Origin: Lachnoclostridium sp. Marseille-P6806
GTDB taxonomy: Bacteria > Bacillota > Clostridia > Lachnospirales > Lachnospiraceae
Direction of reading: 5' to 3'
NCBI RefSeq assembly: GCF_900625025.1
Contig: NZ_LR130577.1
Location: 186,001-250,000 of the forward strand
Length of the DNA stretch: 64,000 nucleotides
The position numbers were made by a program, and so were the translations under genes. This document shows positions 12,446-59,959 of the stretch, in pieces (within the stretch, counting starts at the first letter, position 1; every line of letters starts with the position of its first letter). The notes beneath the pieces are model-generated. The model did no database searches, was not told the DNA's origin, and saw only the letters and a program-made list of their open reading frames with translations.

Positions 12446-12587
12446 TTAGTGTGAAAAATCACGCTGATGCGCTGATTTTTCGCACAGCCATTTGTGCCGA
12501 AGCCCAAATAGCCCCTGAGCGCAGCCGCAAAACCGCATTCGCGGATTTTACGGCGCGTGCCTCGCACAAAGCGCTTCGGCATGGTGA
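12446..12587 (+). repeat. R1 intergenic element, full copy
   Basis: A complete element in plus orientation, starting TTAGTGTGAAAAATCACGC and ending GCTTCGGCATGGTGA. Hairpin 1 is GTGTGAAAAATCA against TGATTTTTCGCAC. The middle hairpin is GCCGCAAAACCGC against GCGGATTTTACGGC. The outer arms GTGCCGAAGC and GCTTCGGCA can also pair. It ends five bases before the GT2 start codon and supplies the GGTGA ribosome site. Confidence 0.8.
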
Positions 12588-12592
12588 TTATT

Positions 12593-13537
12593 ATGGATAA
12601 AATCGCAGTTCTGATTCCCTGCTACAACGAAGCGCAGACCATCACAAAGGTCGTCCGGGACGCCGCGCGGGCGCTCCCCGACGCCGTAATTTACGTATAC
12701 AACAATAATTCCACCGATAATACCGCCGCTCTCGCAGCGGCCGCGGGGGCCGTCGTCCGGAATGAGTACATGCAGGGCAAGGGCAACGTCATCCGGCGGA
12801 TGTTCCGTGAGATCGACGCGCAGTGCTACATCATGGTCGACGGGGACGACACCTACCCCATGGAGGCCGCGCCGGAAATGGTCGAAAAGGTTCTTCATCA
12901 CAACGCCGACATGGTCGTCGGCGACCGCCTCTCCTCCACCTATTTTACGGAAAACAAGCGTCCCTTTCACAATCTGGGCAATTCCATGGTGCGCGCCTCC
13001 ATTAACCGCCTCTTTCACTGCCGCGTCCGCGACATCATGACCGGCTACCGCGCGTTCAGCTATGAGTTCGTCAAGACGTTCCCGGTGCTGTCCCACGGCT
13101 TTGAGATCGAGACGGAGATGACCATTCACGCCGTCTATAATAAGATGCAGATCGAAAATGTCGTCGTCAGCTACCGTGACCGGCCCGAGGGCAGCGCCTC
13201 CAAGCTGAACACCTTTGCCGACGGCTTCCGGGTCCTCAAAACCATCTTCAACCTGTACCGGGGCTACCGGCCGCTTCAGTTCTTCAACGGGGTCGCTCTT
13301 CTTCTGGCTGCCATTTCCGTAATTTTTCTTATTCCGGTCCTCACCGGCTACCTTTCGACCGGTCTGGTAGCAAGATTTCCGACTCTGTTCGTATGCGGCT
13401 TCGTCATGCTCGCTGCGGTGCAGTCCTTTTTTGCGGGCCTCATCCTGTCGAACATGGAGCGCAACAACCGGAGACAGTTCGAGCTCCATCGCTGCGAGCT
13501 GAGCCGCCTGTACCGGCAGGAGCTGGAAAAGCATTGA
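12593..13537 (+). CDS. Family 2 glycosyltransferase with C-terminal membrane helices
   Basis: A 314-residue GT-A fold enzyme. IAVLIPCYNEAQTI opens the Rossmann-like donor site at residue 4. NNNSTDNT is near 40, the metal-binding DGDDTYP near 83, and GYRAFSYEFVKTFPV near 150. Two hydrophobic segments (about 235-260 and 270-295) end the protein, the arrangement of polyprenyl-phosphate glycosyltransferases that load a sugar onto undecaprenyl phosphate. Neighbouring DUF6044 protein parallels the Bacillus subtilis ykoT-ykoS pair. The start at 12593 follows GGTGA; the longer upstream frame is R1 repeat sequence and was rejected. Confidence 0.88.
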   Translation: MDKIAVLIPCYNEAQTITKVVRDAARALPDAVIYVYNNNSTDNTAALAAAAGAVVRNEYMQGKGNVIRRMFREIDAQCYIMVDGDDTYPMEAAPEMVEKVLHHNADMVVGDRLSSTYFTENKRPFHNLGNSMVRASINRLFHCRVRDIMTGYRAFSYEFVKTFPVLSHGFEIETEMTIHAVYNKMQIENVVVSYRDRPEGSASKLNTFADGFRVLKTIFNLYRGYRPLQFFNGVALLLAAISVIFLIPVLTGYLSTGLVARFPTLFVCGFVMLAAVQSFFAGLILSNMERNNRRQFELHRCELSRLYRQELEKH

Positions 13538-17825: not shown

Positions 17826-17861
17826 CCATGCCGAAACGCATCAGCGTGATTTTTCACACTA
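17826..17861 (-). repeat. R1 intergenic element, internally deleted mini copy
   Basis: Plus strand CCATGCCGAA is joined directly to ACGCATCAGCGTGATTTTT and CACACTA, so both termini of R1 are kept and the core is lost. Its distal end carries the TAG stop codon of the response regulator, and its proximal end reaches to 12 bases before the kinase start. Confidence 0.75.
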
Positions 17862-24385: not shown

Positions 24386-24420
24386 GCGTAAAAAATCAGC
24401 GCATCGGCGTGATTTTTTAT
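24386..24420 (-). repeat. R1 distal hairpin only
   Basis: Minus strand TAAAAAATCACGCCGATGCG followed by CTGATTTTTTACGC matches hairpin 1 of R1. No core or start-proximal end is attached. It lies directly before the VOC gene. Confidence 0.6.
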
Positions 24421-24856: not shown

Positions 24857-24898
24857 TCTCCATGCCGAAGCACTTTGTGCGAGGCACGCGCCGTAAAA
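24857..24898 (-). repeat. R1 intergenic element, start-proximal end only
   Basis: Plus strand CCATGCCGAAGCACTTTGTG then CGAGGCACGCGCCGTAAAA is a near-exact match to the start-proximal end of full R1 copies, but its GCTTCGGCATGGAGA end faces no minus-strand gene. The VOC gene lies there in the opposite direction. Confidence 0.75.
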
Positions 24899-34349: not shown

Positions 34350-36335
34350 TCAGCAGAGGCTCTTCGCCGCGGCCTCCGCCGTGGCAAACGGTCCGGGCAG
34401 AACATCCACGCCGCGGTGTGCGCCGAAATAGTCCGCGTCAAAGATGATCGGCGTGCCGTCCGGATTTTCAAATGCCTGATCCGGCTCGAAAACCCTGCCG
34501 AGACTCTCCGTATTCACCATCCCGCAGCGGAAGCCTTTGATCACCTCATATACATTCGTGTCCAGCGTAAGGGCGCCGTCCCGTTCCACCAGCTCCACAC
34601 GGATCGGCGTCTCCTGATCCACAAAGCCGTTCTTCTCCTTGTCCCATGCCTGCGCTCCCGCAAGATAGCAGTTCCCCTCCGACCAGACGGGAAGTTTTCC
34701 GAAATGCGCCTCCTCGAGCTTACGCATATTCGGAATCTCCTCCTCCGGATCAAAACGGAGCTTCCATTCCTCTGCCGTCGGATACTCGTTCCAGACGTGC
34801 GTGCCGACCTCACGATTCTCACTCTCTTTCCTGTCTTCGCTGTCGCTGCGGATCACAAACGGCTCCGACGGCCACTTCTGCACAAAGATGTTATTGCAGA
34901 AGCGGTCGTCGCCGTGCAGAATCGTCATGAAGCCCATGACCTCTGTGCGATGCGGCATGTGATAAGGCGTATACCGCCAGCCCGTCCCCGCGCCTACGCT
35001 GGTAAAGGAGCCGCAGAGCAGATTGTGCACCATGGCCACCCCCTGTGTCGCCACGCGCAGCGAAACATCCGAAAGCAGGATATTGTTGTCGATCAGCGTG
35101 GGTCCATGGCTCACCTCCACAAAAATATCCTGACACATCATGCCGCCCTCAAGCTGCTTCGCATAGGGCGGGCGCTGGTTGTCGTGCAGGAGATTCTGTG
35201 TGATCCGCGTTCCCTGCGCCTCCCAGTCGCACCAGATACCCATTGTGCTGTGATGGATATGATTGCGCCGCATTGTCACATCGATGGCCGCGTGCAGCTT
35301 GATGCCGGATATCTCCGCGCCGCCCAGCTCCATCATGTTGTTGATGTGATGGATATGGTTGTCCTCGATGGTGCTGAACACCGCACCCATACGGCCGATG
35401 ATGCCGCCCTGCTCGCAGTGATGAATGTTGTTGCGGCGGATGATGTGGCTGCCCACATTCTCCTTGAGCCAGCCGTGGTACTGCCCGCGGCAGACCGCAT
35501 CGCGCTCCATCTGCGTGGGGCTCTTCACATGGTGACGGGTGAAGAAATGATCATTCGCCGGATCATAATACTTGCCCAGGGAAATACCGGCGCACTTGCT
35601 GCCCCAGATCTCGCAGTCCTCGATGATCCATCCTTTTGACCAGTGCGGCCCAATCATGCCGTCCTGATACGCCGCCGGAGGCGCCCATGTCGTCGCCGCC
35701 TTGTTGATATTGAAGCCGCTGACCGTGATGTACCCGATGCCGTTTTCCTGTGGCAGGAAGCATTCCCGGCGAGCCGTGATTTCGACTTTTTCCGCCGTCG
35801 GATCCGCCCCCTGGAAATTAGCGTAAATCACGGTTGCATCGCCATCCTGCTCAGTGCACCATTTGCGCCGCGACGCCTCCGGATCCCATGCGCAGGGATA
35901 GACCTCCCCCCCAAGGCACTCCTCGACGGTCGAGACCTCATAGAGCGCCTCGTCGTTCATCCACACGCAGCCGGTGTGCTTGTCCCGCTTCGCAAAATAC
36001 CAGTCACCGAACACATAGGTCGTGTACGGATTATATGTCCCGAACACGCTGTTCGGAATTCTTGTCCTCCATACATTCCCCTCATAAGGCGTCCAGTTCG
36101 TCACCGGCTCCGCTCCGGTGATCTCCGCACCGAGCGGCTCGGTGCTGCGGTAGCAGATCCTTGCTTCCTCGGTTCCCGCATGTACCGGCGCGACATTCTC
36201 GCGGTATGTGCCGGGCGCAACCAGAACCTCATCTCCCGGCATGGCGATCCGGGCCGCCTCGCTGATGCGGCGGAACGGTCTTTTCTCTGTGCCGTCTCCG
36301 TCAAATGCCGCGTTTCCATTTACATAAATCGTCAT
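34350..36335 (-). CDS. Right-handed beta-helix glycosidase, GH120-like
   Basis: A 661-residue protein. The start reads MTIYVNGNAAFDGDGTEKRP, then MPGDEVLVAPGTYREN. After an inserted lectin-like domain (about 95-210) come beta-helix turns such as NNIHHCEQGGIIGR, DNHIHHINNMMELGGAEISG and RNHIHHSTMGIWCDWEAQGT, then QDIFVEVSHGP. The layout and size resemble GH120 beta-xylosidases, where Asp and Glu act as nucleophile and acid/base; CDWEAQG and FVEVSHGP are my candidates for them. No signal peptide, so cytosolic. The start at 36335 follows GGTGA from an R1 element; the longer frame is repeat sequence. Confidence 0.65.
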   Translation of the reverse strand: MTIYVNGNAAFDGDGTEKRPFRRISEAARIAMPGDEVLVAPGTYRENVAPVHAGTEEARICYRSTEPLGAEITGAEPVTNWTPYEGNVWRTRIPNSVFGTYNPYTTYVFGDWYFAKRDKHTGCVWMNDEALYEVSTVEECLGGEVYPCAWDPEASRRKWCTEQDGDATVIYANFQGADPTAEKVEITARRECFLPQENGIGYITVSGFNINKAATTWAPPAAYQDGMIGPHWSKGWIIEDCEIWGSKCAGISLGKYYDPANDHFFTRHHVKSPTQMERDAVCRGQYHGWLKENVGSHIIRRNNIHHCEQGGIIGRMGAVFSTIEDNHIHHINNMMELGGAEISGIKLHAAIDVTMRRNHIHHSTMGIWCDWEAQGTRITQNLLHDNQRPPYAKQLEGGMMCQDIFVEVSHGPTLIDNNILLSDVSLRVATQGVAMVHNLLCGSFTSVGAGTGWRYTPYHMPHRTEVMGFMTILHGDDRFCNNIFVQKWPSEPFVIRSDSEDRKESENREVGTHVWNEYPTAEEWKLRFDPEEEIPNMRKLEEAHFGKLPVWSEGNCYLAGAQAWDKEKNGFVDQETPIRVELVERDGALTLDTNVYEVIKGFRCGMVNTESLGRVFEPDQAFENPDGTPIIFDADYFGAHRGVDVLPGPFATAEAAAKSLC

Positions 36336-36342
36336 CTTCATC

Positions 36343-36477
36343 ACCATGCCGAAGCACTTTGTGTAAGGCGCGCGCCGCAAAATCCGCAGAAGCGGTTCTG
36401 CGGCTGCGATCATAGGCGATTTGGGCTTCGGCACAAACCGCCGCGTAAAAATATCACATCAGCGTGATTTTTTACAC
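36343..36477 (-). repeat. R1 intergenic element, full copy
   Basis: Minus-sense order is hairpin 1 (TGTAAAAAATCACGC...TGATATTTTTACG), GTGCCGAAGCCC, middle hairpin GCCGCAGAACCGC/GCGGATTTTGCGGC, and GCTTCGGCATGGTGA. Compared with 12446-12587, a T-G pair in the middle stem becomes C-G. It begins about eight bases after the MBL remnant's stop and ends seven bases before the beta-helix start. Confidence 0.8.
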
Positions 36478-36479
36478 GA

Positions 36480-36726
36480 ATCACCTCATGTACAGATATC
36501 GTTCTCCCGGCGCGAGCATATGGTATCTCCGATCCTATGTTTCGAGAATATATAATCTGCAAAATGCGCCGGATTCTCGCCGTTGCCCGTCATCGTGTCA
36601 AAATGATGCCGCCCAGCGCACAGGGATCCAGATGATCCTTATGATCGTGCGTGCAGAGCAGATAGTCGAAGAGATCCCCAACATCCTCCGGAGCAAAGGG
36701 CTGCAGCAGCTTCCGTCACAACCGTA
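36480..36726 (-). pseudogene. MBL-fold hydrolase (UlaG-like), internally deleted
   Basis: The minus strand has a metallo-beta-lactamase piece, PFAPEDVGDLFDYLLCTHDH then KDHLDPCALGG, with the metal motif THDHKDHLDP. After GG the frame breaks, and one frame over it continues HFDTMTGNGENPAHFADYIF, SKHRIGDTICSRREN and a stop. These are the start of the metal site and the C-terminal end of a UlaG-type hydrolase brought together, so most of the middle is gone. Confidence 0.7.
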
Positions 36727-48080: not shown

Positions 48081-48723
48081 ACTTTTCCTCACTTTCTGTC
48101 CCCTCTTCTGCTTTTTCTTCTGTCTTTCCCTCTGCCTTTTCTTCCGCTTTTTCCGTCTTCTCTTCCCGGACCGGCAGCGTGCCTGTCCCGGAAAAAAGCT
48201 CAGCCTCCGCCTCCGCTTCCTGCGTCAGCTCCCTTTTCCTGCCGCGAATCAGACGAACGCCGATCCAGATGATCGCCACGCCGAACGCCAGTCCCGGCAG
48301 CGCATCATAGACTCGTGCCGCCGGCTCCCACAGCCATTCCGGCAGAGCCCATGTCACAAGATCCCAGAGGACGCGGATCAGTATCCATGCGCCGCCCGCA
48401 ATCAGCACAATGGCGATGCCGCGGTTCTTCTGCACACGATCCAGCTTCCAGTCCGAAATATGGAGAAGATACTCGTCCTTTACCGCAAACAGCTCCTCGT
48501 CGCTCATGGCGGCCATATTCCTTGCATGGAAGAAGCCGTAGAACCAGACCACCGGCAGGGTCATCACCAGCGGGCCGATATTCGTCATGACCGCGATAAA
48601 GCAGGCCGCCATAAACACCGTCAGAAGCGATATTCCCTGCTTCATCAGGCCCCAGTACATTTCCGCACAGCCCGGAATAAAAGAGAATATAAAGGTCCAA
48701 AATCTGTTCTTTTTCTTATACAT
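48070..48723 (-). CDS. Membrane protein of the ECF sigma/flotillin operon, unknown
   Basis: A 217-residue protein. The N-terminus, KKNRFWTFIFSFIPGCAEMY then WGLMKQGISLLTVFMA, is like TM2-type small membrane proteins. Four hydrophobic segments in total, then a tail of about 60 residues rich in Glu, Lys and Ala. Between them lies a cytoplasmic-type loop with MSDEELFAVKDEYLL. I do not know its function; the operon suggests an envelope-stress role. The ATG at 48723 follows GGAGA from an R1 element. The 49 codons upstream in the same frame are R1 sequence and were rejected. Confidence 0.75.
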   Translation of the reverse strand: MYKKKNRFWTFIFSFIPGCAEMYWGLMKQGISLLTVFMAACFIAVMTNIGPLVMTLPVVWFYGFFHARNMAAMSDEELFAVKDEYLLHISDWKLDRVQKNRGIAIVLIAGGAWILIRVLWDLVTWALPEWLWEPAARVYDALPGLAFGVAIIWIGVRLIRGRKRELTQEAEAEAELFSGTGTLPVREEKTEKAEEKAEGKTEEKAEEGTESEEKYEA

Positions 48724-48732
48724 GATCCGTCT

Positions 48733-48873
48733 CCACGCCGAAGCACTTTGTGCGAGGCACGCGTCACATACACCCTGCGCGGGCGATTTTGTGACTTCGG
48801 CCAAAAACGATTTGGGCTCCGGAACAAATCGCCGTGTGAAGCAAATCAGCGTATCCGCGTGATTTTTCACACT
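48733..48873 (-). repeat. R1 intergenic element, full but diverged copy
   Basis: Minus-sense order is AGTGTGAAAAATCACGCGG (hairpin 1), a CGATTTGT/GGGCTCCGG region, a GC-rich core unlike the other full copies, and CGCACAAAGTGCTTCGGCGTGG. It starts seven bases after the anti-sigma candidate's stop and ends ten bases before the next ATG. Confidence 0.75.
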
Positions 48874-48880
48874 GCCTCCT

Positions 48881-49897: not shown

Positions 49898-50137
49898 CTG
49901 TATTTCAATATGTTTAGCGCATAGGCCCCTGTCAGGCGCCAGCATGAACACCATGCCCGCATGAACGAACATGTCGGCATTTGACAGGGCGACAGATATG
50001 AGCAGGCAGGACGATAGTCCGGATTGCAAATACCTGTCGGATTGCGGGGGCTGCCCAAAGCAGAGGAGCAGTCCTCAGCTTATAATGATGCGGTGCCGCA
50101 AAATGCGGCATGCGGGTACGGAGAACAGCGCAGGGGC
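49898..50137 (-). other. Long 3' untranslated stretch with nested hairpins, no gene seen
   Basis: Between the lipoprotein stop and the terminator lie about 240 bases without a supported gene. Two structures are visible: TGCCGCA-AAA-TGCGGCA (50094-50110), and outer arms CCCTGTCA (49927-49934) and TGACAGGG (49982-49989) enclosing nested ATGCC/GGCAT and CATG/CATG pairs. Short frames here cross the terminator and show no family. Confidence 0.4.
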
Positions 50138-59751: not shown

Positions 59752-59772
59752 TAAGCTGTTCCAATACAACTT

Positions 59773-59896
59773 AGATCTTCGGGGCGAGGTGAAATTCCTC
59801 ACTGGCGGTATAGTCCGCGACCCGTAAGGCACTGCGCCTGCGGCTGATTCGGTGCAACTCCGGAACCAACAGTACAGTCTGGATGAAAGAAGATAT
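59773..59896 (+). promoter_or_regulatory. FMN riboswitch (RFN element)
   Basis: The sequence carries the RFN core: ATCTTCGGGGCGAGGTGAAA, TTCCTCACTGGCGGTATAGT, CCGCGACCCG, GATTCGGTGCAACTCCGGAA then CAACAGTACAGTCTGGATGA, closing with AGAAGAT against ATCTTC of P1. FMN binding should terminate transcription at the hairpin downstream and lower ribU expression. Confidence 0.97.
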
Positions 59897-59959
59897 TCTG
59901 CGCGTTGTTCCCGTCTGTTTTCAGACCGGCGGCACCGCGAAGCACAGATGATGACAGAA

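Follow-up and report, generated by a model that had tools for sequence, protein, structure and literature searches.

A short structured repeat of Lachnospiraceae, lying between two Shine-Dalgarno sequences, as a probable non-autonomous mobile element

Copies in the window and anatomy of the element

The stretch of DNA analysed here (the window, 64,000 nucleotides) contains three full copies of an element of roughly 140 bases, which a first-pass annotation had located correctly; their extents are about 12446–12594 on the plus strand and about 36334–36480 and 48723–48875 on the minus strand. The copy at 12446–12592 (+; 175.6 bits against a covariance model, CM) ends one base before the ATG at 12593–12595, and GGTGA at 12583–12587 (+) is read in the sequence as an element-borne Shine-Dalgarno (SD) motif; its 5′ flank, agagatc, is without a strong SD. 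The copy at 36336–36480 (−; 146.9 bits) carries its SD, GGTGA, at 36341–36345 and has gaggtga before its 5′ side; the ATG at 36333–36335 was taken as the start, and another in-frame ATG lies 6 nt farther upstream. The third copy, at 48724–48875 (−; 117.1 bits), has the SD GGAGA at 48730–48734, an ATG at 48721–48723 and gaggag before its 5′ side.

Pieces of the element are also present on the minus strand. The mini copy at 17826–17861, recognised as such at first pass, is an internally deleted form in which the first half of the first hairpin, P1, runs into the 3′ SD end. The ends noted earlier near 2217–2257 (more fully about 2208–2257) and at 24857–24898 are both 3′ ends: the remnant at 2211–2257 provides the SD for a frame starting at 2210, and the one at 24857–24898 is adjoined on its upstream side by a remnant of an ~85-nt module. 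What had been listed as an end at 24386–24420 proved to be a P1-like remnant of 27 nt (24391–24417, −), possibly P1 only, and its membership of the family is unsure.

From 5′ to 3′ the element reads (T/A)TA, P1 with a single bulged base, P2, P3, a short linker and GCTTCGGC-ATGG-(T/A/G)GATT. In the 12.4-kb copy (plus strand throughout), P1 (12449–12485) lies just within the 5′ end and is a long hairpin with a single bulged C; the hairpins P2 (12486–12513) and P3 (12519–12556) follow. The P2 loop, GCCGAAGC at 12496–12503, is exactly complementary to the 3′ GCTTCGGC at 12573–12580, and these two strands are predicted to form an H-type pseudoknot, P4. Many copies of the own genome have an additional structured module of ~85 nt set into the P1 tip, the P3 tip or both, and in two sister species, G021 and G035, the P1 tips of one orthologous copy differ by an additional small hairpin (L334 versus L349); the hairpin tips thus tolerate growth. 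The ~85-nt module (L009 3297–3527, L030–L032, L037–L039, L041–L044 and others in the own genome) was met solely in or beside the element, in a sample that had been drawn for the element.

To assess the fold, 62 elements chosen by hand from many genomes were aligned by sequence alone, and a structure written from one row was applied to them. Three hairpins and the pseudoknot between the P2 loop and the 3′ end are paired in 93.6% of cells, compared with 38–46% when partners are slid, and two-sided changes occur in 39 of 48 pairs, including eight of the nine P4 pairs. P1 is paired in 96.1% of cells, a value biased in the panel because the P1 search pattern pre-selects this hairpin; P2–P4 are not pre-selected. 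In addition, five single copies (two from the window, one from elsewhere in the own genome and two from other genomes) are predicted to fold with z-scores of −4.7 to −6.8 relative to shuffled sequences. The conserved pairing noted at first pass for the middle hairpin holds across the family, and three hairpins plus a pseudoknot are well supported, on covariation and predicted stability, as a real conserved fold. Rfam matched only two RNAs in the window, both away from the element: an FMN riboswitch at 59771–59898 (RF00050) and a Clostridiales-1 RNA at 49921–50083 (RF01699), the latter seen also at locus L050 and, below the gathering score, at L065. A permissive Rfam search of six plus five further loci gave nothing over the gathering score on the element, and group II intron domains, although found by Rfam in an intron locus, were not found on it.

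Copy number, distribution and placement

A blast search with one copy returned at least 53 pieces in the 3.13-Mb own genome, a lower bound with the best 40 of 167 candidates scored, and a CM built from 26 insert-free copies found at least 88 matches at E ≤ 1e-3, again a lower bound as 150 of 2105 candidates were scored; all 88 were located on the retrieved genome sequence. Under strict filters, the CM search of the genome and its relatives that the first-pass annotation had proposed found the element in 25 of 61 genomes, counting the own genome, and some of these had tens of listed matches. In a class-wide draw of 245 genomes, two match under strict filters, one of them being the own genome, so the element is not a general feature of Clostridia.

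A scan for the P1 hairpin in a collection of 84,980 species yielded at least 117 loci, and a CM match at E ≤ 0.01 is present in 114 of the 117 listed (79 among the first 80, 35 among the remaining 37), although in a few of the 114, truncated at a contig end or masked, little is seen beyond P1. The 80 titles examined are mostly of Lachnospiraceae or other Clostridia, with Robinsoniella peoriensis, Lachnospiraceae bacterium 10-1 and strain C-53 among the carriers; a few read Bacillus sp. or Bacteroides sp. and may be mislabelled metagenome-assembled genomes. There were no matches to the P1 pattern in the viral_contigs set and none to a single query in the plasmid set. Three matches in the ‘phages’ set (MT836788, MT837007 and MT838414) are to unverified ‘Bacteriophage sp.’ gut scaffolds, where chromosomal-type genes adjoin the element, one of them for what we take to be an enolase-like protein; these records are probably bacterial scaffolds.

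The 3′ end is readable in 82 of the 88 own-genome matches, and its relation to genes bears out on a genome-wide scale the fixed orientation and start-codon proximity first noticed in the window. An ATG opening at least 60 codons lies 5–11 nt downstream in 62 of the 82 copies, compared with eight of 82 in the mirror control; any start codon is found 2–21 nt downstream in 71 of 82 (control, 21 of 82), and a laxer cut (at least 30 codons, any start) gives 76/88 against 32/82 in the mirror. Beyond the own genome we used a panel of 73 rows from 71 loci, drawn from the first 80 P1 loci with the 37 later ones outside it and with 12 of 85 matches omitted (contig-end cuts, second or weak matches). Here 60 of 73 copies have, correctly placed downstream, a frame of 60 codons or more; in the control six of 73 do. 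The genes downstream, among them what their translated starts suggest to be pyrB, pyrI, pyrE, lepA, glmM, ylxR and those for IMP dehydrogenase and TrpRS, have unrelated housekeeping functions and fall into no consistent class.

The SD at the 3′ end belongs to the element. Among 34 of the 88 own-genome copies, sorted into sequence classes drawn by the analyst, the variants GGTGA and GGAGG follow the internal sequence type (13/6 versus 2/13; Fisher p = 0.002), and therefore the 3′ SD travels with the element. The bases ATT after the 3′ SD are also commoner among element copies than among native leaders, in a comparison of 29 copies with 77 leaders that splits into small classes.

A second SD usually lies on the other side. 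A strong SD motif occurs in the 14 nt before the 5′ end in 40 of 53 own-genome copies, compared with seven and eight in the next two upstream windows, the 53 ends including one opposite-strand artefact (C6 36018 +) that was kept in the count. The 5′ side directly follows an SD in 55 of the 73 panel copies, with five and five in the controls. The usual order is therefore host SD, element, element SD, start codon, with 13 of 53 own copies (the 12.4-kb copy included) and 18 of 73 panel copies showing no strong motif at the 5′ side. Copies nest in tandem: five of the 53 own copies come after the 3′ end of another copy, and these, together with several in the panel, inflate the 5′ SD counts, since they stand behind another copy's 3′ SD.

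Weighing against a 3′ SD brought in by the element, the two SDs flanking a single copy are more alike than shuffled pairs, with a mean shared stretch of 4.90 versus 4.13 in the panel (reached in 0 of 500 shuffles) and of 4.32 versus 3.84 in the own genome (9 of 500). Nested copies account for part of this likeness, and in part of the copies it may reflect a short target duplication. The first-pass annotation had also noted that in three places the distal end adjoins the previous stop codon, a point that receives weaker support: by a crude frame-based test, 11 of 53 copies have the longest frame of the same strand either running to its end within them or stopping no more than 6 nt ahead of them. 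A subfamily at L055, L058, L067 and L149 (genomes G027, G010, G018 and G076) has a GGAAGAGTGAAA-like sequence at its 5′ end, which in L058, L067 and L149 recurs at the 3′ end; it is tied less clearly to start codons and may target gene ends.

Empty and occupied sites in two sister species

The comparison of empty and occupied orthologous sites, likewise proposed at first pass, was made between G021 and G035, which are 95.2% identical over one shared site, and it reveals insertion polymorphism. This polymorphism, the 5′ SD that places the element between two SDs and the pseudoknot go beyond what the first-pass annotation had described. The flanks of seven G021 insertion sites were joined and searched in G035. 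Five of the seven insertions are empty in G035 when read base by base (L331 twice, L332, L335 and L336); at L333 the joined flanks match through the junction at 80% identity, a reading taken from the match alone, and at L334 the site is occupied also in G035. When six G035 sites were looked for in G021, one proved empty (L338), one occupied (L343) and one reduced to a remnant (L339); the other three were not found in the G021 genome, which is incomplete.

The cleanest case is L332, where the empty site reads CATGGAGG|CATACATGG and the occupied site CATGGAGG|CAAGAGTG...GCATGAAAGG|CAAACATGG, the element ending in AAAGG; a duplication longer than GG is not required. At L336 the empty site GAAGAGG|CTCAACATGG corresponds to GAAGAGG|CCAGAGTG...GGTGG|TAAACATGG, with a few bases differing beside the junction, and at L338 the empty site CAGGAGGTGACGATATG corresponds to CAGGGGGT|GAAGAG...AAGGAGGT|CGATATG. 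The L335 insertion follows the SD carried at the 3′ end of an older copy, and for the first copy at L331 the host sequence AGGGA is present in the empty site but not in the occupied one. These sites reveal that the SD was present before the insertion, that the element enters 3′ of it and that the element's own SD takes over. Precise losses could in principle produce the same empty sites. At L339/L353 the copy is full in G035 and G021 retains only ...AAGCTCAGGCAGGAGG, the 3′ SD end, before a gene that looks to us like rpsO.

Two gene junctions were followed more widely, pyrB-pyrI and nusA-ylxR, with 30 loci each. CM matches are confined to the own genome and L149, i.e. to one of 58 loci outside the own genome. 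The CM misses diverged forms, as inspection by eye showed: L123 has a truncated copy and L120 a shorter cousin. At L120 (G026, pyrB-pyrI) a hairpin element that differs from the present one and is shorter is repeated three times in tandem, with CATGGAGG (GGAGG) at the end of every unit; it is possibly a distant cousin family.

Interpretation and rival explanations

The element is multicopy, non-coding and insertion-polymorphic, and is thus a small interspersed mobile repeat. With 88 CM matches and sites that are empty in a sister species, it is one spreading family rather than random REP debris, as had been proposed from the window. More specifically, we consider it likely that it is a short non-autonomous element which, probably folded as a single strand, inserts in sense just 3′ of an SD and replaces the SD that it displaces. 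Its 3′ end would bring a new SD suitably spaced from the start codon, and with this the entered gene would probably stay translatable and the insertion would be nearly neutral. The three hairpins and the pseudoknot would be maintained by selection for mobility. After insertion the host would need the 3′ SD alone, and the remainder would decay towards it. The L339 remnant and the 82 readable 3′ ends against 53 five-prime ends (on the same retrieved sequence, from differently tuned searches) are consistent with a decay that generally spares the 3′ end. Position and orientation would both be explained if the SD itself is recognised as the target, and selection against insertions elsewhere must add to the placement.

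The conserved pseudoknot adjoining an SD also recalls translational riboswitches such as preQ1, in which a pseudoknot lies close to the SD, and the element might instead be a host regulatory RNA, a translational riboswitch or attenuator, copied before many genes. In keeping with such a role, 37 of 62 tabulated sequences allow 4/4 pairing between the SD and the P4 3′ strand (CTCC/CTTC). However, the element is mobile and without an Rfam match, occupancy is not kept at orthologous sites of the two junctions tested, the downstream genes are unrelated and copies nest in tandem. Locking the pseudoknot strands gave no significant change in predicted SD accessibility (58 of 62 sequences; p = 0.47 and 0.17), and an anti-SD switch is on this coarse enforced-helix run unsupported rather than refuted. 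We regard a regulatory origin as quite improbable, and of the intra-operon 5′-UTR module suggested at first pass it is the spreading that stands and not a conserved regulatory role.

The route of mobilisation can be weighed in the same way. REP/RAYT and IS200/IS605-derived elements have hairpins and an orientation set by a short target, and a REP-like repeat moved by a Y1 (HUH) transposase of either type would account for the fixed orientation to a short target, the bulged hairpin at the 5′ end and the lack, by inspection, of terminal inverted repeats. Unlike in those systems, no Y1 match was found in three carrier genomes (own, G021 and G035; drafts, 87–97% complete), the element is present in none of the 26 Y1 loci examined, a subset of the Y1 matches, and a RAYT-like gene in G007 appears to sit among a different repeat, which leaves this explanation a small chance. 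That gene (L304, 2019–2912) has nearby frames that repeat a short SQGDCP-like peptide, and its enzyme may move a different multicopy repeat. We give a somewhat larger, still small chance to an RNA route, in which the folded sense RNA recognises the SDs of mRNAs, inserts there and is copied back into the chromosome by a reverse transcriptase acting in trans, its own SD hiding the insertion from the host. The sense orientation, the placement in translated leaders, the conserved single-strand structure with its pseudoknot and a group II intron with reverse transcriptase in the own genome all fit; if true, such an RNA-borne parasite of translation start sites would represent a new class among bacterial retroelements, one lacking a protein of its own. 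Yet target choice and selection explain the orientation equally well, single-stranded DNA would give the same pairing, and the single reverse transcriptase match lies in an ordinary group II intron, the only one of the own genome, beside which no element was found. A classic MITE of a DDE transposase, to which size, copy number and the absence of coding sequence would be suited, is highly improbable: the ends TTAGTGTG... and ...GCATGGNGATT are not complementary by inspection, the inverted repeats are internal hairpins and L332, the cleanest base-resolved site, requires no duplication beyond GG. The greater-than-chance SD likeness within panel copies may nevertheless point to a target duplication in some.

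Among known repeats, bcr1 of the Bacillus cereus group is a mobile repeat of ~150 bp whose RNA-like structure is conserved; it has another target and is not known to end in an SD. We set the present element apart from it by this description rather than by sequence. The BOX, RUP and SPRITE repeats of pneumococcus (PMC3049150) are short, multicopy, structured if transcribed, nested and judged probably parasitic; they occur in excess between convergent genes, and terminal inverted repeats and target duplications are features of BOX and RUP. The Lachnospiraceae element is likewise short, multicopy, structured and nested; unlike all three it lies in sense between an SD and a start codon, with an SD and a pseudoknot of its own, and unlike BOX and RUP it is without evident inverted ends. 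The SD target, the replaced signal and the pseudoknot were not encountered in the open-licence literature searched, where no listed title or abstract opening describes such an element.

If insertion behind and replacement of an SD is right, SDs are a target of mobile elements, and this element persists in dense operons by replacing the very signal that it interrupts. Perhaps 3% of the genes of the own genome would then use element-borne SDs (from the 88 matches and a rough estimate of gene number), a point of importance when leaders are annotated, riboswitches sought or expression studied in Lachnospiraceae. The element also offers a defined system in which to seek the mobilising activity. The own genome encodes five serine recombinases in frames of 532–604 aa, none of them linked to the element and none IS607-sized. 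Three large serine recombinase genes lie in a row at G000 C10:16432–20222 (L361–L363).
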